IMG/VR virus record: IMGVR_UViG_3300037264_001489
Location: 1-20,849 of that record
Length of the DNA: 20,849 nt
Reading direction: 5' to 3' (one strand)
Source of the DNA: a virus
In this document: one piece after another, positions 876 through 17,503 of the stretch
Numbering within the stretch: the stretch's first letter is position 1
How the letters are laid out: every line of letters starts with the position of its first letter
The notes under the pieces: generated by a model
What the model was told of the DNA's origin: nothing
The model's input: the letters and a program-made list of their open reading frames with translations, nothing else
Database searches by the model: none
Program-made: the position numbers and the translations under genes

Positions 876-1054
876 AAATCCCTCCCCTCAGTAATCTTAG
901 GAATTATAGTCCCAATACCTGACATTCTCACAGTGTGCCCATCTGTCAAGGCGTCTGCAATAACATCAAAAACATCTCCAAGAACCTTAAGAGATTTTCT
1001 CTTGGAGTAGCCTTCCTTCTTTGCCAACTCATCAGCTAAATCATATTTATTCAT
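761..1054 (-). CDS. HU/IHF-like DNA-binding protein
   Basis: 97 aa from ATG at 1052-1054; a GTG one codon earlier is also possible. The layout follows HU: an N-terminal helical dimerisation part (NKYDLADELAKKEGYSKRKS...VLGDVFDVIADAL), then GHTVRMSGIGTI at the position of HU's G-F-G-T-F strand, a beta-arm region (residues about 55-80) and a closing helix with K-A-F-R-K-D-L. The arm lacks the usual R-N-P-Q/K-T-G-E sequence, so DNA bending may differ. The start overlaps the portal stop by 8 bases, which suggests translational coupling. In a head-gene block an HU-like protein could help condense or package DNA; that is inference. The 3' part is overlapped by the start of the next gene. Confidence 0.8.
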   Translation of the reverse strand: MNKYDLADELAKKEGYSKRKSLKVLGDVFDVIADALTDGHTVRMSGIGTIIPKITEGRDFWSNLSKTNVTIPKRVSITFRVSKAFRKDLTELSPLIN

Positions 1055-3776
1055 CACTTACAGTCACAGTCTCTACTACTACTGGTAAAGGGTTATTTTC
1101 CCAATTATCTGGATACGTTTCTAACGTGCGCGCCTTCTTGCCTATCAAGTAAGCTTCCATCAAATTATGCACTCTCTGTGGATTGCTTTGAACTAACTGT
1201 ACTAGCTTGTGTGCATCAGGAGTGACAATATTACCTGGGCCTTCTATATCAGGCATAGTACCTAGGAACATATGAATCTCATCATCTGATAGACGAAGGA
1301 AATTCCGCAACGACCAAGTTAGCCAACGTTTCTCATCTAGAATCTGGGACTGCGCTCCTATGTTCATGCTAGTCTGCACCATATCCATACGTAGCTGGTA
1401 GACCTTACTACGCATCAATTCATCTAGATACGAAATAGGTGACATACCTACTTTAAATGCATTCTTTGGATCCTCTGGGTCGATGCCCTTGTACACGAGT
1501 TGAATGGCTACCAACCTGCGGATACCTGATAGGTATGATTTACGTATAGCTTTAATTGTAGAAGCAAATCTAATACTTTGTGATGATAGAGTTGACTCAC
1601 CACTAAAGGCTCCCTGAGATTCTTCAAACCCCATAAATCCTTTAGGTATCCTCAGCGCACCAAACAATTTATTACGTTGGTACTCGATGTCAACGATATC
1701 ACTAATGTTTGGAGTACCTGAGAGCTTTTCAACACGTGATGTAGACCCTTCACGCACGGGCCAGAAAAGGTCAGCATCGATTGAGTTATGCACAAAAACG
1801 CCAGAACTCCTTTTACCGCAAGAACTTACAGGACTTACATCAATAGCAAAGTTGTGGAATTCCTCAACTGTAATGTCATATACGAGCTTACTTTTACCTG
1901 TTTTCACTACAGAAACTACGCAATGATTGGGAGCCTTATGAGTCGATTTCCAGACATGATATGGATTGTTCTTCTTGAATTCCTTCGGGAACTTCTGCCA
2001 CTTACGATAGAGGCTAAAATTCTGATTAGCCATCTTCTTGCCGACTCTGAGACTCTTCTCAGATTTGTTGTAAACCGCAACGTGCTTATTCCCGTTATTG
2101 GCTTGGTGCGGCCTTAGCATCTCTCTAAACTCTGGATCTTTCCATTTCTCAGTCACCGTCTTTTTCAGCGTTTTAGATGCTACTTTACGATGCGCCTCAG
2201 ACTTGTTGTACTTAGTTAGGTTGATTGGCCTCCAAACTTTACCAACCCTGGCTGCGTTAGCTTTATGTAGTTCTGGATTTTCATCAACCCACTTACCTAA
2301 GCCTTTCTCGTAATGTAACTCTGGATTTTCCTTAATCCATTTACCTAGTCCTTCTTCATATAAGGCCGCGTGTAGCTCAATATGCTCAACACGTCCCATC
2401 AGCCTAAGGTTATCAGGTGAGTTATTTCTCTTATCGAAATCCTTATGATGTGCTACACGCCCATTACCCCCGTAACCGCCCAAACATCTGTTAACTATAA
2501 CCTGGTGCGTGTACCCCCAGCCTTCTTTGATACCCTTCACACTACCCCCGTAACCCCCCTCATTTATCCAAATCTGCTCATACCCATCAAGGTTATCCCC
2601 ATCTTCTTTGGATGATGTCTTGAAGTAAACAGCAGCTAATGAGTTCCCTTCCTCCAACTCTATAGCCTTCTTGTACGTTCCATCCTTAAGCATCCACGGG
2701 TGGTCGTAAGTGCACTCTGCTGTATGCCCGTTATCTAGGGTTACTATACAAGTCTCTTTCTCCCCGCTCGTTCTTGGATGATAGCCTAAACCAGATACTG
2801 TATTACCATCCTTATCTTTTGAGTAAACCCACAGCTTCTTATCAGGCGTCTTAGCCCACTCCTCAAAAGTTATAGATGTACCATTAACTAGAGCAATCTT
2901 GGTGTCACCTACAAAGCAGACAGGATTCCATTGAGTCCTGTAATCGCCAGCGTTTCTGTTTAAGTATTCGCGCTTTTTAATAGCTTTACGCCATCTGTTT
3001 ACAATATCGTAAGCCTCTTCTGGAGTTGCGTTTCCAACATCGACGTAATAAATTATGCGATCAGATGCCTTAGTCATACGGTAAACTACCAAAGAGTCTT
3101 CAACCATCTTTAGCTGTTCCCACGCAGTTGCTGCAGGATACAAAATAGAATCGCCGTAGAGATTATCTCGTTCTCTAGATGGCATCCTAAAGTGGATAAT
3201 TTCCCAGGGCTTCCATTGAATACCTTGGGTCTTGGATATTTGCGATGCTGTCTTTCCTGTGTTACCAGATATATTGGGCTTAAATCCAAGAAGCTTACCA
3301 TGCTCTTGGACGCGGGCCACATTGATTGGTGGCGGGGACTTCAGATGAATTATGTCGCCAGTTTCGCTGTTATGTGTAATGGCCTCGAAATGGTCTCCAT
3401 ACTTACACATCTTGCGAACAATACCTGAGCCTATTTCCTCCATGTTAATACGATCAAAAAGTTTTGCAGCAACTCTTACTACGTCAGCGTTATCTGAGTC
3501 TACCCAAATTGATGCATCATGCTCCATGTCATACTTGAAGCACTCCTCCGCATAAAGGTCCAAAGCGCTCGCGATAAGCTCGTACTGGTCCATTCTGTCA
3601 TAATTACGATAGCGAGAGGCACGATCAGCAGGACGACTAGTTTGTTGATTGTAGTACTTCCATGCTTCTGATTCTCCGTAAGAGTTTTGGTCACCCGCTA
3701 TAGGGTCTTTTATCTTTGTATTAGATTGGTCTAGCCCGAAGTAACGCCTAACACCAAAAAAGTCTAGTAATCCCAT
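1047..3776 (-). CDS. Portal protein (T4 gp20 type) interrupted by an intein
   Basis: 909-aa precursor. Residues 1-286 and 665-909 are portal exteins, together 531 aa, close to T4 gp20 (about 524 aa). Landmarks: an acidic/aromatic N-terminus (YELIASALDLYAEECF, residues 65-80), WKPWEIIHFRMPSRERDNLYGDSIL (188-211, read in two halves), the pre-insertion strand TQWNP, and after the insertion IDADLFWPVREG, KLFGALRIPKGFMGFEES and a long C-terminal helical part. The portal forms the dodecameric ring at the capsid vertex through which the terminase pumps DNA. The intein (residues 287-664) splits NPV from SIDADLFWPV; removing it restores a continuous portal. The ATG at 3774-3776 overlaps the terminase stop by 13 bases, so the two are probably co-translated. 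Confidence 0.93.
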   Translation of the reverse strand: MGLLDFFGVRRYFGLDQSNTKIKDPIAGDQNSYGESEAWKYYNQQTSRPADRASRYRNYDRMDQYELIASALDLYAEECFKYDMEHDASIWVDSDNADVVRVAAKLFDRINMEEIGSGIVRKMCKYGDHFEAITHNSETGDIIHLKSPPPINVARVQEHGKLLGFKPNISGNTGKTASQISKTQGIQWKPWEIIHFRMPSRERDNLYGDSILYPAATAWEQLKMVEDSLVVYRMTKASDRIIYYVDVGNATPEEAYDIVNRWRKAIKKREYLNRNAGDYRTQWNPVCFVGDTKIALVNGTSITFEEWAKTPDKKLWVYSKDKDGNTVSGLGYHPRTSGEKETCIVTLDNGHTAECTYDHPWMLKDGTYKKAIELEEGNSLAAVYFKTSSKEDGDNLDGYEQIWINEGGYGGSVKGIKEGWGYTHQVIVNRCLGGYGGNGRVAHHKDFDKRNNSPDNLRLMGRVEHIELHAALYEEGLGKWIKENPELHYEKGLGKWVDENPELHKANAARVGKVWRPINLTKYNKSEAHRKVASKTLKKTVTEKWKDPEFREMLRPHQANNGNKHVAVYNKSEKSLRVGKKMANQNFSLYRKWQKFPKEFKKNNPYHVWKSTHKAPNHCVVSVVKTGKSKLVYDITVEEFHNFAIDVSPVSSCGKRSSGVFVHNSIDADLFWPVREGSTSRVEKLSGTPNISDIVDIEYQRNKLFGALRIPKGFMGFEESQGAFSGESTLSSQSIRFASTIKAIRKSYLSGIRRLVAIQLVYKGIDPEDPKNAFKVGMSPISYLDELMRSKVYQLRMDMVQTSMNIGAQSQILDEKRWLTWSLRNFLRLSDDEIHMFLGTMPDIEGPGNIVTPDAHKLVQLVQSNPQRVHNLMEAYLIGKKARTLETYPDNWENNPLPVVVETVTVSDE
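1785..2918 (-). other. Full-length intein with HNH homing endonuclease in the portal gene
   Basis: Protein-level insertion of 378 aa (precursor residues 287-664). It begins with Cys in CFVGDTKIALVNG (block A), has a block B T-Y-D-H (T356, H359), a block F region LVYDITVEEFHNFAID (631-646) and ends VFVHN followed by Ser665, so the +1 nucleophile is Ser and the penultimate His is present. All residues for splicing are visible. A short insertion (VSPVSSCGKRSS) separates block F from VFVHN. The middle holds an HNH endonuclease: VAHHKDFDKRNNSPDNL then EHIELH (H443/H444, N452, N456, H465, H469). It is followed by two 16-residue tandem repeats and a basic DNA-binding tail (NKSEAHRKVASKTLKK...), reminiscent of NUMOD modules. 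It is probably active for both splicing and homing, judged from motifs only. Confidence 0.93.
2262..2357 (-). repeat. Tandem 48-bp/16-residue repeat within the portal intein
   Basis: Two adjacent copies encode EEGLGKWIKENPELHY and EKGLGKWVDENPELHK (precursor residues 474-489 and 490-505). 12 of 16 residues are identical, and the DNA copies are clearly alike. They follow the HNH core directly and probably form part of the endonuclease's DNA-recognition tail. Confidence 0.85.
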
Positions 3777-6289
3777 TCTATTGATTCTCCACCTTGGATA
3801 CCAGTTATGTATCCATCATCTGTGCGCTTCTTTAGATTAAGCGCTTTTTGCACAAGTTTTTCATTAGAGTTTTTGAATTGAGGCTTATCTTGGTGGAATG
3901 GATACGTTGCATTATCTTTAGCACAAAGAAATACAGCGCCGGCTACAGCATCAGAAACGTCCTTAGATTTGTCTGGGGGGTGGTCAATCTTGGATTTCCT
4001 GCCTTTGATAATTCTTTGAAGTTGTCCTGCTTCCGATACGAATGGGTCATACTTATACATATGAATTCGTTCTTCCATTAAAAGATCGCGCAAGTAATCG
4101 TAGGCGTCACTGTTACGGTCTACAGATTGTCTATCAGTATTGAGTCCAACTTTCATTAAATCTTGTACGGAAGATGCTGATTGGTACCCATCATATGTAA
4201 TCTTATTGAACATAAATCCATTTCTACGCAGATATACAAAGAATTCCCTAATAGCTGAGATATCTATCTCACTACCTGGAGATGCTTTTATTCTAAGCAT
4301 GAAGTCCACGTTAACCTCAAAAGTTGAAACACTGTATCCAAGCTCATCCCTGATCTTAATAGACTCCTTACGCATACCAGCACTGTGTACTACAGCAATT
4401 CCAGCAGCATCGCCATTTAACGCCAAGTCAACGTGAGCAAATCTATTAACTTCTGGATTGAGCTTTGGCACGTATCTAGATCCTACCACCTTACACACAT
4501 CTCGTATCTTGAACCAGTCTGATATTTTAGGCATTTTAAGATAATCAAGTTCTAAAGTTTCAAGAGTAAATGGATGTTCCCATTCAGCATTGGCGCATGC
4601 TACAAGTTTAGTACGATCTTGTAGATAATTAGAAACTGCGTAGATAGGAACACCAGCAAGGTCACGAATAGCTTGTTCAATGTTGTTCTCAAAAATTACT
4701 CTATGCTCAACAGGAACATCAATTACGTGCTGTTCTTCTGGGTCTTCTTCACCTACTGCCAGGATGCGTGATTGCTTGTACTTGTTACCTACAGCTACTT
4801 TAAAAGTCTCCCCACAGTAATTTTCAGGCGGCTTAGTTTCCCACAAAGCATAATCTGATAGGTGGACCCCTCTCTCCCCTGCGAAACGCTCTATATGCTT
4901 TTCAAGGAAGTCTGATTCTGTATTTCTTGATGATATGACACAGAGCAATCCAGGGTTATACCCTCTATAGCCGTACTGACCTGTAATACGAGCGCGAACC
5001 TGATAGTACAGTTTGTACGCATCACCTATAGCGCCGCCCTTCATAAAGTTAGCCTCATCGATGATGCAAACAATAATTGCTCGGCCTAGCGCGTGTAGTT
5101 CCTTTGACCCGAAGTTCACACGAATACGATGAGGAAATTCAAGCCTGTAATTTATCTTATTGTTTCTAGGGAAGTACTTACGAAAATAAGGTGAGTGGTC
5201 TACAAACTGTTTTATGTAATCAAAAGCAGTTTCCTCAGCTTCAGATAGACGTACGGAGAAAACACCAAAATAAATAGCAGTGTTTGGATCTCCGAGGCCC
5301 AGATATGTTTGAGGATTCTTGGTGCATGAGAGTACATAAAGTTTGTACGCGCAAGCCACTGATGCTACATAGGTCTTTCCACAACGTATAGCTCCAGTAT
5401 TACTTGAAGTCAAACCTGCTTTCCAACAAATTTCATTTGTCTCTAAATCCCTACAACACAACTGCCAAAGACCTGTTTTATCTACTGTAAGACAATAAAC
5501 GTCCTCTTCTCCACACTCCTCTACACCAATTACTAAACCACGCGCTTTTCTATCTATTCCATGAACATCTTCAGCAATAAGATGATGCTCATAGTCATAA
5601 TCTTTCTTATTGTGTTGGTATATACGTCTGTAACCACTAAGAGCACCTTGACCTTCTGTTCTACTAAAGGGCATCAAACGTGTTTCACCTGGAGACATAT
5701 CTTTAACCATAATCAACTCACCGTCTCTAGTGAGCATCTGGTGTTTAGCGTTAGCTCTAAAATACGTGCCATTATCTAGTGTAATTTTGTATACAACGTC
5801 TCTGCCCGTTTTATGCGGATATCTAGCCTCAGCAGGAATAACTCTCCCCGTTTCTTTATCATGAGACCATATCCAGAACTTTTCATTTTCTCCTTTAGTT
5901 TCAGACAACTCTTGTATGCTAGGGGTTGTTCCATCACACATAGCAACTGGAGTATCACCTGTAACACAAAAAATCCACTCAAACGTATCTGTTCCCGCCC
6001 TAAAAACGTGGTTTAGCTCTTTTCGCCAAACAGGATAAATACCCTCACAAGATGTTCCTAAGTAAAAAGGATCTGTTATAAATTGTTCAATGCTTACAGG
6101 CTGACGTACAAAATCTATTGAATACAGTTTAGCGAGAGTATCAGAGGCACCTTTCTCCATGTGCTCTCTCAACATTTGAATTGCCCACTGCTGCTCCTCT
6201 GCGGTTAGACCTCCAAGTATTTCGGCTATTTTTGATTCATTTACTCCTGTGCCTTGTAGCGCTTGTATAATTGTCTCTCTGTTAATCAT
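3764..6289 (-). CDS. Terminase large subunit interrupted by an intein
   Basis: 841-aa precursor; the exteins (residues 1-107 and 298-841) join into a 651-aa terminase. The ATPase half shows Walker A TGAIRCGKT (298-306), Walker B IIVCIIDE (405-412) and a coupling motif VISSRNT (451-457). The nuclease half is RNase H-like, with acidic residues at D621 (FAHVDLAL), D700 (ITYDGYQ) and D777/D780 (KDVSDAVAG). It cuts concatemeric phage DNA and powers its translocation through the portal encoded directly downstream (13-base overlap). The start is ATG at 6287-6289, 11 bases after the preceding gene, with no clear Shine-Dalgarno sequence. The intein sits between FEWIF and TGAIRCGKT, so translation without splicing would give a motor with a displaced P-loop. 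Confidence 0.95.
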   Translation of the reverse strand: MINRETIIQALQGTGVNESKIAEILGGLTAEEQQWAIQMLREHMEKGASDTLAKLYSIDFVRQPVSIEQFITDPFYLGTSCEGIYPVWRKELNHVFRAGTDTFEWIFCVTGDTPVAMCDGTTPSIQELSETKGENEKFWIWSHDKETGRVIPAEARYPHKTGRDVVYKITLDNGTYFRANAKHQMLTRDGELIMVKDMSPGETRLMPFSRTEGQGALSGYRRIYQHNKKDYDYEHHLIAEDVHGIDRKARGLVIGVEECGEEDVYCLTVDKTGLWQLCCRDLETNEICWKAGLTSSNTGAIRCGKTYVASVACAYKLYVLSCTKNPQTYLGLGDPNTAIYFGVFSVRLSEAEETAFDYIKQFVDHSPYFRKYFPRNNKINYRLEFPHRIRVNFGSKELHALGRAIIVCIIDEANFMKGGAIGDAYKLYYQVRARITGQYGYRGYNPGLLCVISSRNTESDFLEKHIERFAGERGVHLSDYALWETKPPENYCGETFKVAVGNKYKQSRILAVGEEDPEEQHVIDVPVEHRVIFENNIEQAIRDLAGVPIYAVSNYLQDRTKLVACANAEWEHPFTLETLELDYLKMPKISDWFKIRDVCKVVGSRYVPKLNPEVNRFAHVDLALNGDAAGIAVVHSAGMRKESIKIRDELGYSVSTFEVNVDFMLRIKASPGSEIDISAIREFFVYLRRNGFMFNKITYDGYQSASSVQDLMKVGLNTDRQSVDRNSDAYDYLRDLLMEERIHMYKYDPFVSEAGQLQRIIKGRKSKIDHPPDKSKDVSDAVAGAVFLCAKDNATYPFHQDKPQFKNSNEKLVQKALNLKKRTDDGYITGIQGGESIEWDY
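5399..5968 (-). other. Mini-intein with apparent HNH remnant in the terminase gene
   Basis: 190-aa insertion (precursor residues 108-297). Block A is CVTGDTPVAMCDG, and block B carries N-A-K-H (180-183) after VVYKITLDNGTYF. The C-terminal region has VYCLTVDKTGLW and ends LTSSN followed by Thr298. Cys1, terminal Asn and a Thr +1 nucleophile are present, but the penultimate His of canonical inteins is Ser, and about 20 extra residues lie between block F and the terminal Asn. Residues 231-250 (YEHHLIAEDVHGIDRKAR) resemble the start of an HNH domain (YxxEHRLVAEExLGR), but the catalytic H-N-H part that should follow is missing. This looks like an intein that lost its endonuclease by internal deletion. 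Intein identity is secure; splicing efficiency is uncertain. Confidence 0.88.
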
Positions 6290-9902: not shown

Positions 9903-10268
9903 CTATTCCTTTAATAGACCGTAATAGGTCCTTTTCTTCATTAAGATTTCAACAATGGATCCATCTAAATCCTTGTCGTCCATATACTTCACAACAGTCA
10001 CCTTACCAATTTTGATTGTTTTAATCACCAGATAAGGATAATGCGCCTTAGGCTTATCAACCACAGCGCCCAATGAATTGTCTTCTAGTTCTACAACATC
10101 CCCCTCAAAGAAGATGCGGTTGTTCAAAATACAGCCTGACTTATAAGCAGTTTTTATACTAGGATTATGCGAAACCACAATTCCTGTCAATTCTAATGCT
10201 AGTTCTGTTCCATACGTTATTGATGTTAAAATAAGTATCGAAGCTATGATAATATTTACTGTTTTCAT
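9903..10268 (-). CDS. Exported or membrane-anchored small protein
   Basis: 121 aa. It starts MKTVNIIIASILILTSITYG, a signal peptide or N-terminal anchor with a possible cleavage after SITYG; there is no lipobox Cys. The mature part is beta-rich with FFEGDVVELEDNSLGAVVDKPK and LDGSIVEILMKKRTYYGLL, a pattern reminiscent of small SH3-like or KOW-type barrels. Its ATG overlaps the sbcC stop (ATGA). Function unknown; it presumably acts in the host envelope. Confidence 0.75.
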   Translation of the reverse strand: MKTVNIIIASILILTSITYGTELALELTGIVVSHNPSIKTAYKSGCILNNRIFFEGDVVELEDNSLGAVVDKPKAHYPYLVIKTIKIGKVTVVKYMDDKDLDGSIVEILMKKRTYYGLLKE

Positions 10269-12538
10269 GAAATTCTCTCTACTGTAGAAACATTTGAATT
10301 ACGCGTTGCTAGCAAAATATTACTGATTCTGCTATTTAAAGCATCGCTATGGCTTATCAAAAATACAGACATCCCAGCGTCAGCCTTCTCTTCAAGCATC
10401 TCTAAAATGGCATCAGTACCAGATTCATCTATACAGTCAAGGACTTCATCACAAACCAATAAGTTCATTTTGTGCCCAGTTATCGTAGCTGTCAAATCAG
10501 AAAGCGCAAAATGAACAGCTAAATCCATTCTTCTTTGCTGGCCACCAGACGCCGCTATGTAGCCTGCGCCCCCTGTAGAAGCCACAATATCCATCTTTTC
10601 TCTAACTTGACCAGATTTCAACTTTGTTTGTGGGGTAAGCTCTATTGCTATTTCTCCATCAGATATGGCTCTAGAGTGGTGGTTCATCCTAGAGTTTAAA
10701 TAAGTTATTACATCATCAAGTATCATTGACCTGACACCTGTAGCTGAAAACCCTTTTTCCCAAAACTCAAGATATGGAAGCTCATCATTGATTACACTGA
10801 GCTTACTTTCTACTACGGCTAAATCCCCCTCAGTTGTAGTAATTGCGCGCCTCAGTGCCTCTGTGGGCTTATTAAGGGCCGCCTCTTCTCTATCTAGGTA
10901 AGAAGCTTGAGACTTATTACCTGATATACGGTGGGCTACATCGTTGACCTGCATTTTGGCTTCGTTAAGGTTTACTGCAGCTATCTTTTCTTTGATAATG
11001 TTAAGGGTCTCTCTACTATCATCTAGCTTCTCCAAGGTTTCAGTAGCACCATTTTTATAGCCGCCAAGTTCAGTGTGAAGATTAGTAAGCCCCTCTTCCA
11101 TCGCAGCAACTGTAGCAGCTACATGTTCCTTATCAATCTCCTGTTCACATGTAGGACAGTTTCCTGTTAAATACAACAAGTTAGAAATACGACTAGTATG
11201 CTCCCTAATCTGCTTTTCACAATAACGTCGTGCAGACTCGGCTTTGTCCCATAGAGCTTTATTTACGTTAACGTCATTTAAAGCCTTAATGTGTTGATCG
11301 TTAACCTCTCTTATAAAGTCTTCCAGTAAACTAAGTTGCTCTACAGCATCTTTTCTTTCATCTTGGAGTTTTACTAAAGTGTTGGCTAATGTTTTTCGTT
11401 CTTCAGCCAGTCTAAGCATTTCATCATCTTTAGTAGCCTCAAGTTCCTCTATTTCTTTTTCATAGGAAATTATAGATGTCTTAAATGCCGTCCTGCTTCC
11501 ATCTAAGCCGCTGCTCTCACTCTTAATATCCTTTAGACGCTGCTTTACCTTTTTCTCAGCCTTACTAAATACGTCTAGCCCTATCAATTCTTCAAGTAAT
11601 TGTTTTCTACCTGTGTCATTTAAACTTAGAAATGTCTCGCCCATCTTCTGCCCAAAATAAATAACATGCTTAAAGGCGGACAAAGATAGGGGTAACAGCG
11701 AGCTTAAAATAGCCTCAGCATCTGCTTGTTTGAACGGTGTTTTATTCTTACCGTTTATAAATAGATGTAACTTATTTTTACCTGTTTTGTGCTCTCTGTG
11801 CCTAACTACAGTAAGTTCATCTTTACCTACGCATAAGTCAACCTCAACGCGCGTTCCTCCCGGAGAGGCGTAACTTACTACATCATCAAACTTAAGCCCT
11901 TTGTAAGTCTGTCCATAAAGGCACCAACAAATCGCTTCAAAGATACTAGAATTGTGTGTGATAAATCCATCAAGAGCATATAAGGATGTTTCATTATCTA
12001 TCTGTATATCGTACGTCTGTTCTGGTGCTATCCTCTGTATCTCTATAACTTTAGCCCAGCAAATATCAGACATTCCAGCATTATCAAACGTTGAAAGATG
12101 TGTTCTCGGTTGCGCTACTGAATCTCCTACTTTTAGATTTTTAGCCAGTGTAGTAGTACCATAACCTGTCATTATAGGATGCGTAACAGATACCCGCTCT
12201 GTAGTGCCATCATACAATGTTATTTTTAACAGCTCTTTAATACCGGATTCAATCACAGTAATAACTTTAGATGGTCTAAGTATTAAATCAGTATCAAGCC
12301 CAAACACAGTAAACGCAGAGTCTTGTCTAGCATATAACTCTTTAATTGTAATACGCTCACGTGTTACAGCATCAGTAAGTATAGTACTCCCTGAGAGGCA
12401 CTTTCCCACGCCATTAGAGTCAGCTTTACCACCATCTTGATTATACCCAAGAACAAGAACTAATCCTTGTTGATTAAGGTCTATAGTGGCTTTACCGATT
12501 ATAAGGAAATTCTCTATTGTTGCTTTTAGTAGCTGCAT
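10265..12538 (-). CDS. SbcC/Rad50-like recombination nuclease ATPase (T4 gp46 type) interrupted by a mini-intein
   Basis: 757-aa precursor; exteins total 607 aa (T4 gp46 is about 560). N-terminal lobe: ATIENFLIIGKATIDL, P-loop DSNGVGK (40-46) continuing after the intein as SSIFEAICWCLYG, and Q-loop YFGQ (294-297). The middle (about 320-590) is coiled coil with a short Rad50 zinc hook CPTC (461-464). C-terminal lobe: signature ASGGQQRRMDLAVHFALSDL (663-682), Walker B NLLVCDEVLD (692-701) and H-loop LISHSD (727-732). It works with the SbcD/gp47 nuclease to process DNA ends for recombination and replication. It is separated from sbcD by two plus-strand frames and a terminator, so it probably needs its own promoter upstream of 12538. 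No strong Shine-Dalgarno sequence precedes the ATG. Confidence 0.94.
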   Translation of the reverse strand: MQLLKATIENFLIIGKATIDLNQQGLVLVLGYNQDGGKADSNGVGKCLSGSTILTDAVTRERITIKELYARQDSAFTVFGLDTDLILRPSKVITVIESGIKELLKITLYDGTTERVSVTHPIMTGYGTTTLAKNLKVGDSVAQPRTHLSTFDNAGMSDICWAKVIEIQRIAPEQTYDIQIDNETSLYALDGFITHNSSIFEAICWCLYGQTYKGLKFDDVVSYASPGGTRVEVDLCVGKDELTVVRHREHKTGKNKLHLFINGKNKTPFKQADAEAILSSLLPLSLSAFKHVIYFGQKMGETFLSLNDTGRKQLLEELIGLDVFSKAEKKVKQRLKDIKSESSGLDGSRTAFKTSIISYEKEIEELEATKDDEMLRLAEERKTLANTLVKLQDERKDAVEQLSLLEDFIREVNDQHIKALNDVNVNKALWDKAESARRYCEKQIREHTSRISNLLYLTGNCPTCEQEIDKEHVAATVAAMEEGLTNLHTELGGYKNGATETLEKLDDSRETLNIIKEKIAAVNLNEAKMQVNDVAHRISGNKSQASYLDREEAALNKPTEALRRAITTTEGDLAVVESKLSVINDELPYLEFWEKGFSATGVRSMILDDVITYLNSRMNHHSRAISDGEIAIELTPQTKLKSGQVREKMDIVASTGGAGYIAASGGQQRRMDLAVHFALSDLTATITGHKMNLLVCDEVLDCIDESGTDAILEMLEEKADAGMSVFLISHSDALNSRISNILLATRNSNVSTVERIS
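11951..12400 (-). other. Mini-intein splitting the P-loop of gp46
   Basis: 150-aa insertion (precursor residues 47-196). It begins CLSGSTILTDA (block A), has S-V-T-H (117-120) as block B, TYDIQIDNETSLYALDGF as block F and ends ITHN followed by Ser197. Cys1, block B His, penultimate His, terminal Asn and +1 Ser are all present, so splicing should be competent. The size is near the minimum for a splicing domain and no endonuclease is visible. Excision restores DSNGVGK-SSIF, a regular Walker A motif. Confidence 0.93.
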
Positions 12539-15960: not shown

Positions 15961-16197
15961 CTAAGATTTACTTTCCCACATCCAATCATCGTGCTGATGA
16001 AAACCTTCCTGTGCGTGCCAATCTTGCCAAGTCATCATACCATCTTTTACAAATTCTCTATTAACCTTTCTCTTAGTACCGCATTTACTACACTTTGTGG
16101 GAATGTGCTGTAAATAATTTCTGCAGTCAGTAAAATCTGGCCCAAGTCCTTTAGTTGGTATTCTAACCCACGCAGAATTACCGCAGGAACATACCAT
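15961..16197 (-). CDS. Small zinc-ribbon protein
   Basis: 78 aa. C3-x-C5 near the start (MVCSCGNSAWVRIP) and CSKCGTKRKV in the middle form a likely zinc ribbon, followed by a Trp/His/acidic-rich tail (MMTWQDWHAQEGFHQHDDW). The ATG shares one base with the previous stop (TAATG). No family recognised; the ribbon could bind nucleic acid. Confidence 0.75.
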   Translation of the reverse strand: MVCSCGNSAWVRIPTKGLGPDFTDCRNYLQHIPTKCSKCGTKRKVNREFVKDGMMTWQDWHAQEGFHQHDDWMWESKS

Positions 16198-16448
16198 TAT
16201 GCAACAGCATCTGTAGGTAAGTCCGAATCCATTAATTGCTGAACAACCCGAAACAAATCAGTAGCCAGGACAGGATATGTCTCGTTACATGCCTTTGCGT
16301 AAGCTACAAGAGCAGGTAACGCGAAGGGATCATGCACTAAATCTAACACAAAGTAATTACATTTGTGGTGCTTACATCCTGGTTCAGACCCTCCATCAAT
16401 CCTCTCTACCTTATACTTGTTGTATACCCCTTCTCCTTTATCACTCAT
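16197..16448 (-). CDS. Small protein of unknown function
   Basis: 83 aa from ATG at 16446-16448, which has AGGTG about 6 nt upstream and overlaps the end of the thioredoxin-like gene by 8 bases; in-frame TTG and ATG codons further upstream lack such support. It contains CKHHKCNYFVLDLVHDP, then a helical part (ALPALVAYAKACNETYPVLATDLFRVVQQL). The Cys/His cluster may bind a metal. No function known to me. Confidence 0.75.
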   Translation of the reverse strand: MSDKGEGVYNKYKVERIDGGSEPGCKHHKCNYFVLDLVHDPFALPALVAYAKACNETYPVLATDLFRVVQQLMDSDLPTDAVA

Positions 16449-16740
16449 TACACACCTGACCGCCTTCATCTTCATAACTTGTGTATCTCTTAAAGCGCTC
16501 AAGCCACTGCAAAAGCTGAACTTGTGAAAGACCCCCGAGCATTTTATTAACTACTAAATCATCTTTAGTTATTACAAATGTTGGAGCACTAGATACTTCA
16601 TATTTATCCGATACCTGCCAGTCATCCAAAACATTATACTTCTCTAGTATGACATCTACGTCTTCAGCAACCTTATCAATTGTGGAACCCACAATATCGC
16701 AAGGCCGTCACCCAGGCAAATAAAAGTAAAGTAGCTTCAT
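16441..16740 (-). CDS. Thioredoxin-like protein with in-frame TGA at the active site (probable selenoprotein)
   Basis: 99 codons from ATG at 16738-16740 to TGA at 16441-16443, with one in-frame TGA at codon 11 (16708-16710). It reads MKLLYFYLPG-(TGA)-RPCDIVG..., against the thioredoxin pattern hhxFYAPWCGPC. The TGA falls on the first active-site Cys; the second Cys is codon 14. The rest of the fold is intact: an alpha-1 helix, KYEVSSAPTFVI with the cis-Pro, then the strand VVNKMLGGLS and the helix QLLQWLERF. The ATG overlaps the upstream stop (ATGA) and has AAGGAG 10 nt before it, so translation is clearly intended to start there. TGA ends at least ten other genes here, so it is not globally reassigned. 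The likely reading is selenocysteine (U-R-P-C), inserted with host SelB machinery. Alternatives are an inactivating mutation or a sequence error. A GTG-initiated 83-aa fragment (16692) would lack the active site and has no ribosome site. Confidence 0.78.
16679..16710 (-). promoter_or_regulatory. Candidate bacterial SECIS element
   Basis: Directly downstream of the in-frame TGA on the minus strand lies a perfect 7-bp stem ATTGTGG/CCACAAT (16695-16689 and 16685-16679) with loop GTT. There are 19 nt between the TGA and the first loop base. Bacterial SECIS models ask for an apical loop 16-37 nt after the UGA with a G in the first two loop positions; both hold. The bulged U of the E. coli fdhF element is not obvious, and the loop is short unless the top G-C pair opens to GGUUC. 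Confidence 0.5.
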
Positions 16741-16925
16741 CTAAAAAACACTCCTTGTCTCCACTGATCCGTACGCATAGCGCACGGAGCACAGAAATAC
16801 CCATATTTTTTAACATACGTCACATGCCATGCAGATTTAGGCCATATGTTTTCACATACTCCTCGACATTTAATAAAACTCGCATTTAAGTCATCAATTA
16901 CCTGCCGCCCGTCAGACATATCCAT
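16737..16925 (-). CDS. Small Cys-rich protein coupled to the thioredoxin-like gene
   Basis: 62 aa from ATG at 16923-16925 (a second ATG two codons on). It contains C-x3-C (CRGVC, residues 20-24) and C-x2-C (CAPC, 45-48), a likely zinc site, between polar helices. Its TGA overlaps the thioredoxin ATG (ATGA), so translation of both is probably linked. Function unknown. Confidence 0.72.
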   Translation of the reverse strand: MDMSDGRQVIDDLNASFIKCRGVCENIWPKSAWHVTYVKKYGYFCAPCAMRTDQWRQGVFFR

Positions 16926-16927
16926 AG

Positions 16928-17503
16928 CTATACGTCTTTTGTACTATTCATCAACTTAGCTACGTTCTCTTTGCAAAAACCGCGCTCATTACGTTTGATG
17001 AATTCTATCAAAATTCCTCCAAGTATGTTAAAAGGCTTACTAAATACCTGTTCTATTCCTGGGCATGTTTGCGGCTGCTCAGACAGAAACTCCCCCCACC
17101 CGTTAGCCTTCCAATGCTTCATAGCTTCTTCTACATCATCAACCATATAAGCTAAATGGTGTATACCCTCACCATTTTCAGCAACCCAATTACCTACAAT
17201 AGATTCAGGTATACCATCACTAATGAATACCTCTGGTGCTATATGGTACTCTGCGCAGGTATCACTCCCATGTTCTGGACACTGGCCAGTGTCTAGATCA
17301 AGCTCTGCCTCGCAGCAGGATAAAGGCATAATGAAGGGTATGGCTGAGGAGGACCGCTCTGACGGTAATAAAACAAGGCACTTAACGCTATCATCATCAA
17401 AAGGTTTAAACTCTTCGTGGAGCCTATACCCAAATGCATTTATCCAAAACTTAGCAGTCTCCCATCTATTAACTGCTCTGATGGCGATGTGATCGAGGCG
17501 CAT
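16928..17503 (-). CDS. VOC/glyoxalase-fold protein, methylmalonyl-CoA epimerase-like
   Basis: 191 aa. Two babb modules: MRLDHIAIRAVNRWETAKFW ... with metal-ligand candidate H5, and GEGIHHLAYMVDDVEEAMKHW with H115/H116; the last strand GGILIEFIK gives E167. The HIAI...GEGIHHLA..VDD pattern is closest to methylmalonyl-CoA epimerase and related VOC enzymes. A Cys-rich insert (CCEAELDLDTGQCPEHGSDTC split over residues 63-83) is not typical of that family. VOC proteins range from epimerases to dioxygenases and drug-binding proteins, so the substrate is open. ATG at 17501-17503 with GAAGGG about 9 nt upstream. A metabolic gene of this kind is unusual in a phage replication operon. Confidence 0.85.
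   Translation of the reverse strand: MRLDHIAIRAVNRWETAKFWINAFGYRLHEEFKPFDDDSVKCLVLLPSERSSSAIPFIMPLSCCEAELDLDTGQCPEHGSDTCAEYHIAPEVFISDGIPESIVGNWVAENGEGIHHLAYMVDDVEEAMKHWKANGWGEFLSEQPQTCPGIEQVFSKPFNILGGILIEFIKRNERGFCKENVAKLMNSTKDV

Follow-up and report, generated by a model that had tools for sequence, protein, structure and literature searches.

A probable selenocysteine thioredoxin in a phage genome fragment, and UGA thioredoxin genes in other phages

INTRODUCTION

A viral DNA fragment, IMG/VR record IMGVR_UViG_3300037264_001489, carries a thioredoxin reading frame in which a TGA takes the place of the first cysteine of the active-site C-x-x-C motif. Is this a working gene whose UGA is read as selenocysteine, or is it a thioredoxin gene spoiled by mutation or by sequencing? 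A preliminary description, made from the letters of the fragment, favored selenocysteine. Here we weigh that reading against its alternatives, using the whole stretch of 20,849 nucleotides (the window) together with viral and bacterial sequence collections.

The proposed chemistry has precedent. A cellular thioredoxin with a U-x-x-C site is an accepted bacterial selenoprotein (PMC13188914), which bears out the earlier statement that this is a known selenoprotein form. A tRNA-Sec has been described in Basilisk-like Bacillus phages and reported as the first in phages (PMC6145125). Like the gene studied here, it would be a phage-borne part of selenocysteine decoding; the accessible part of that report concerns a tRNA gene and names no phage selenoprotein. 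Unlike those phages, the window fragment contains no tRNA gene. The reviews and surveys of prokaryotic selenoproteins that were searched (PMC13188914, PMC12013277) are silent on phage carriers. A marine trace-element survey examined other families, selenoproteins included, with few or no viral sequences (PMC9402790). The Sargasso Sea and Global Ocean Sampling surveys found thioredoxin selenoproteins without attributing them to phages. Within the open-access literature phage-borne selenoproteins thus appear undescribed, and a report elsewhere is possible. The selenocysteine thioredoxin is a known cellular kind; what appears to be new is a phage-borne version.

RESULTS

A thioredoxin frame with one UGA

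The frame lies on the minus strand, a point absent from the preliminary description. From 16740 to 16441 it reads MKLLYFYLPG, TGA, RPCDIVGSTIDKVAEDVDVILEKYNVLDDWQVSDKYEVSSAPTFVITKDDLVVNKMLGGLSQVQLLQWLERFKRYTSYEDEGGQVCNE and a terminal TGA. Its features and neighbors are:

16441 to 16740, minus strand: thioredoxin gene, 99 amino acids and a stop, with one in-frame UGA and a U-R-P-C active site (Pfam, predicted structure)
16708 to 16710, minus strand: TGA codon 11, predicted selenocysteine at the first C-x-x-C position (the phage Omar column is Cys)
16699 to 16701, minus strand: TGC codon 14, second (resolving) active-site cysteine, invariant in the alignment
16751 to 16756, minus strand: Shine-Dalgarno-like AAGGAG, 10 nt 5' of the ATG (sequence)
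16737 to 16925, minus strand: upstream ORF of 62 aa, its TGA overlapping the ATG of the thioredoxin gene, operon context (ORF list)
16197 to 16448, minus strand: downstream 83-aa ORF overlapping the end of the thioredoxin gene, operon context (N-terminal part of PHROG 9572)

In the context MKLLYFYLPG-UGA-RPCDIV, the UGA stands at the first cysteine of C-x-x-C. The second cysteine, the cis-proline and all 88 sense codons between codon 11 and the terminal TGA are intact, as had been claimed. The start site is also as first described: AAGGAG at 16756-16751 lies 10 nt before the ATG, which overlaps the TGA of the previous ORF as ATGA. The next ORF begins inside the 3' end of the thioredoxin gene, and with overlaps on both sides the thioredoxin frame belongs to a tight operon. 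The 62-aa ORF upstream (16737-16925) has no Pfam or PHROG match; it encodes four cysteines and is translationally coupled to the thioredoxin. Just upstream of the operon, at 16928-17503, is a gene for a glyoxalase/dioxygenase-superfamily protein, which is unusual for a phage.

Standard ORF calling finds only an 83-aa fragment that starts at GTG 16692 and lacks both active-site residues; the ORF list agrees with the preliminary description on this. Might that fragment, or the 10-residue peptide ending at the UGA, be the real product of a gene that is decaying or that encodes a non-redox thioredoxin-like protein? The GTG ORF is the sole output of standard calling, but no Shine-Dalgarno sequence precedes it, whereas AAGGAG precedes the ATG. 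The fragment would be missing the first strand along with the active site, and the 88 codons contain no extra stop or frameshift and remain gene-like in their codon usage. We regard this explanation as extremely unlikely.

Family membership and the position of the UGA

Read through the UGA, the frame matches Pfam Thioredoxin PF00085 with 37.2 bits (cut-off 23.5, E=3e-9), and a separate six-frame search returned a PF00085 match of 28.7 bits with '1 TGA' inside. The read-through protein also matches PHROG 22 and 143 distinct PDB sequences at E up to 0.01; among the matches listed, nearly all are thioredoxins. A structure predicted from a 30-sequence alignment has a mean pLDDT of 85.4, and Foldseek matches it to thioredoxins with E about 1e-7. 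Compared with the usual thioredoxin fold, the protein lacks the first strand and helix and begins at the second strand. Its predicted redox residues are U11-R-P-C14 and the cis-proline Pro53. In the 30-sequence alignment, columns F6, 11, P13, C14 and P53 are invariant, column 11 being the first Cys, which is UGA in the window.

By search, the closest named phage relatives are Streptomyces phage thioredoxins. That of Streptomyces phage Omar (Omarvirus; YP_010055134.1), MNVLYFTSPHCRPC, shares the short N terminus and the C-R-P-C motif. It sits beside the window protein in a tree at low support, and it differs in having Cys exactly at the column of the UGA. By alignment, then, the UGA falls on the redox cysteine of homologues, as it does in bacterial selenoproteins.

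The genetic code and the state of the frame

Does this phage read UGA as a sense codon everywhere? The 21 other window genes examined (5,796 codons) contain 95 TGG and zero internal TGA, and TGA terminates 10 of the 30 listed genes, the thioredoxin included. Because TGA is never internal in these genes and is an ordinary stop, the code is standard, and we rejected reassignment. The preliminary description had reached the same conclusion, with a small miscount: it spoke of at least ten other genes ending in TGA, and there are nine.

Among stop codons UGA is the leakiest, and suppressor tRNAs occur in some phages, so that inefficient reading, or reading by a suppressor or reassigned tRNA, might insert Trp, Cys or Gly at codon 11. 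The same figures (10 of 30 genes ending in TGA, none of 5,796 codons) count against this idea, as does the lack of a tRNA gene in the window; moreover, Trp or Gly at codon 11 would abolish the chemistry. We consider it very unlikely.

The codons after the UGA are those of a gene. Compared with equal-sized pieces of real genes of this phage, their usage lies at the 80th percentile, and it beats every off-frame piece.

A SECIS-like hairpin follows the UGA

If the UGA encodes selenocysteine, is there a signal for it? Directly after the UGA is a structure missed in the preliminary description:

16668 to 16707, minus strand: SECIS-like stem-loop directly after the UGA, with apical loop GUU at 16688-16686 (folding)

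The RNA 3' of the UGA, CGGCCUUGCGAUAUUGUGGGUUCCACAAUUGAUAAGGUUG, folds at -15.8 kcal/mol, and 0 of 200 shuffles are equally stable. The bacterial SECIS model asks for a loop of 3-9 nt, an upper stem of 4-16 bp, a G in the first two loop positions, a distance of 16-37 nt from the UGA and an MFE of at most -7.5 (PMC13188914). The window hairpin satisfies it, with loop GUU, 5 bp, a spacing of 19 nt and -15.8 kcal/mol. Rfam SECIS models gave no match.

How telling is this agreement? Among the 731 TGAs on both strands of the window, 34 meet the model and one, that of the thioredoxin, does so at such an energy; a looser scorer accepts 60, of which two are equally strong. When the gene was recoded synonymously (n=5000), 35% of the recodings met the loose model and 39 (0.8%) were as stable. 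The looser model is met by 60 of 89 bacterial WUGPC thioredoxins, by 24 of the 31 long viral frames described below and by 15 of 50 chance UGA frames. General hairpin constraints alone are weak, passing 5-8% of window TGAs and 35% of recodings. Since many sequences pass the loose model and few are as stable, the hairpin counts as good evidence that stops short of being conclusive.

Relatives of the window phage

The window has no DNA match to known phages, and searches with the thioredoxin, exonuclease and SbcC found no close relatives in the viral-contig collection. At least 101 viral stretches contain the gene at 16197-16448, and none of the 80 loci that were kept has a thioredoxin close to it. 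The codon-11 UGA of this gene is known from one sequence, and all UGA homologues found are distant. The proposal to compare codon 11 among relatives was thus answered in part, with Cys in Omar and UGA in distant phages and no close relative found. The suggestion that sel genes might lie elsewhere in the phage found no support: SelA, SelB, SelC and SelD are all missing from the 20.8-kb fragment. As a separate observation, the portal, terminase and SbcC-like genes (window 1047-3776, 3764-6289 and 10265-12538) each apparently contain an intein, and the apparent portal intein matches HNH endonucleases.

Could the UGA have arisen by error in sequencing or assembly, or by a recent nonsense mutation, in an ordinary C-R-P-C thioredoxin? 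A Cys codon is one substitution from TGA, Cys homologues occur in phages and the window phage is represented by a single sequence. Yet by our own estimate a random stop would fall on a catalytic cysteine and be TGA less than 1% of the time (2 of 99 codons, about one-third of stops). A random stop would also leave unexplained a correctly spaced SECIS-type hairpin, and in-frame UGAs occur at the same position in other phages. We judge an error or recent mutation improbable.

UGA thioredoxins in other phages

To these other phages we now turn. The pattern F-x-A-x-W-U-x-P-C had 82 matches in 2.9 million viral contigs. Of 81 scored UGA frames, 50 were set aside as having no long GPC frame. The 31 long thioredoxin frames, in all of which a UGA precedes GPC, represent 26 distinct UGA regions; 30 belong to one family and the other is locus L076. 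Two further patterns gave chance frames: F-x-x-P-G-U-[R/S]-P-C in viral contigs had 17 matches, all of this kind, and a second PGU pattern had one.

We call the 30-contig family marine, a label that we infer from contig names and T4-like gene content. Its loci (L022, L024, L028, L034, L089 and 25 more) share the motif W-UGA-G-P-C. In 22 aligned sequences the UGA is invariant, as the search pattern required. A SECIS-type hairpin, mostly GAGC-AGGU-GCUC, lies 22 nt downstream of the UGA and is shifted by one base in four members. In its alignment 89% of cells are paired and two pairs are changed on both sides; covariation exceeds that of shuffles only modestly (score: 15 of 500 shuffles).

One member is the 113-kb genome G027 (IMGVR_UViG_3300030099_006395; locus L089), with its UGA thioredoxin at L089:9253-9594, just upstream of the genes for single-strand binding protein and UvsX. 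With a major head protein, tail sheath, DNA polymerase, helicase and ribonucleotide reductase in addition, G027 is by gene content a T4-like phage. A second member, G012, has a T4-type portal, terminase and sheath. G027 also carries a convincing predicted tRNA-Sec at L102:1501-1591 (69.4 bits against a cut-off of 47; ARAGORN anticodon UCA). SelA, SelB and SelD were found neither in G027 nor in the other phage records searched, so the host would have to supply them.

Two further phages have candidates. L076:4660-4984, in a 116-kb genome (G025) with a phage terminase, is a separate WUGPC thioredoxin with a lipoprotein-like N terminus. Its hairpin, GAAAC-AGUU-GUUUC, is weak (-4.7 kcal/mol) and sits 22 nt after the UGA, the same place as in the marine family. 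L303:584-904, in a phage with a GpA-type terminase, is a thioredoxin-like P-G-UGA-G-P-C frame with 80 codons after the UGA that matches the window protein with 40.8 bits. Its cis-proline is replaced, and its hairpin is weak and no better than shuffles, so the case for L303 is one of frame and motif only. A tree joins the window protein, with low support, to L303 and Omar and places the marine family on a separate branch, which suggests separate origins for the window and marine thioredoxins.

DISCUSSION

The window gene is, in our judgment, quite probably a phage selenoprotein: a U-R-P-C thioredoxin whose selenocysteine would be decoded by the SelB of the host. The reading first proposed is supported by the fold, a gene-like frame, the standard code, a SECIS-type hairpin, Cys homologues and the UGAs of other phages, all of them sequence evidence. 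We infer the incorporation of selenium, as we do decoding by the host, selenium content, a rate advantage and the clients of the enzyme.

How would such a gene work? A ribosome would start at ATG 16740 and come upon the UGA as its eleventh codon. There the SelB of the host, bound to the downstream hairpin, would bring Sec-tRNA(Sec), and selenocysteine and 88 more residues would be added; without selenium or SelB, only the 10-residue peptide would be made. In the finished protein the selenolate would attack disulfides in proteins of the phage or the host, with Cys14 resolving the intermediate, a faster version of the ordinary thioredoxin reaction. Phage thioredoxins can serve ribonucleotide reductase, as T4 NrdC does, and this enzyme would be a likely client during phage growth. 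G027 carries a ribonucleotide reductase; none is shown in the window fragment.

The window protein shares with the bacterial Sec thioredoxin its family (PF00085, U-x-x-C), the selenocysteine at the first C-x-x-C position and a SECIS-type hairpin just downstream. It differs in being phage-encoded, in having PGURPC instead of WUGPC and in lacking the first strand and helix. In GTDB genomes the pattern WUGPC[K/R] gave 88 long frames in 92 loci, mostly in Planctomycetota and also in Verrucomicrobia-type and Melainabacteria genomes; identity of the window protein to the best-scoring bacterial UGA copies found is about 31%. The marine T4-like thioredoxins, such as that of G027, resemble the window gene in being phage-borne with an in-frame UGA at the same residue. 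They differ in their full-length fold, separate branch and unrelated hairpin sequence 22 nt downstream, and in that one of the phages has a tRNA-Sec.

We also think it likely that selenocysteine use is recurrent in bacterial viruses: several unrelated tailed-phage lineages would have a UGA thioredoxin with a SECIS-type hairpin, and at least one T4-like phage would feed decoding with its own tRNA-Sec while relying on host SelB. The wider claim that phages encode selenoproteins draws mainly on the marine family and its predicted tRNA-Sec.

If these genes are what they seem, phages use the 21st amino acid in redox enzymes, and such genes would work only in hosts that decode selenocysteine. Standard gene calling would miss or truncate phage selenoprotein genes. 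A phage tRNA-Sec and a selenoprotein gene in one genome would allow a direct test of the reason for rare tRNAs in phages.
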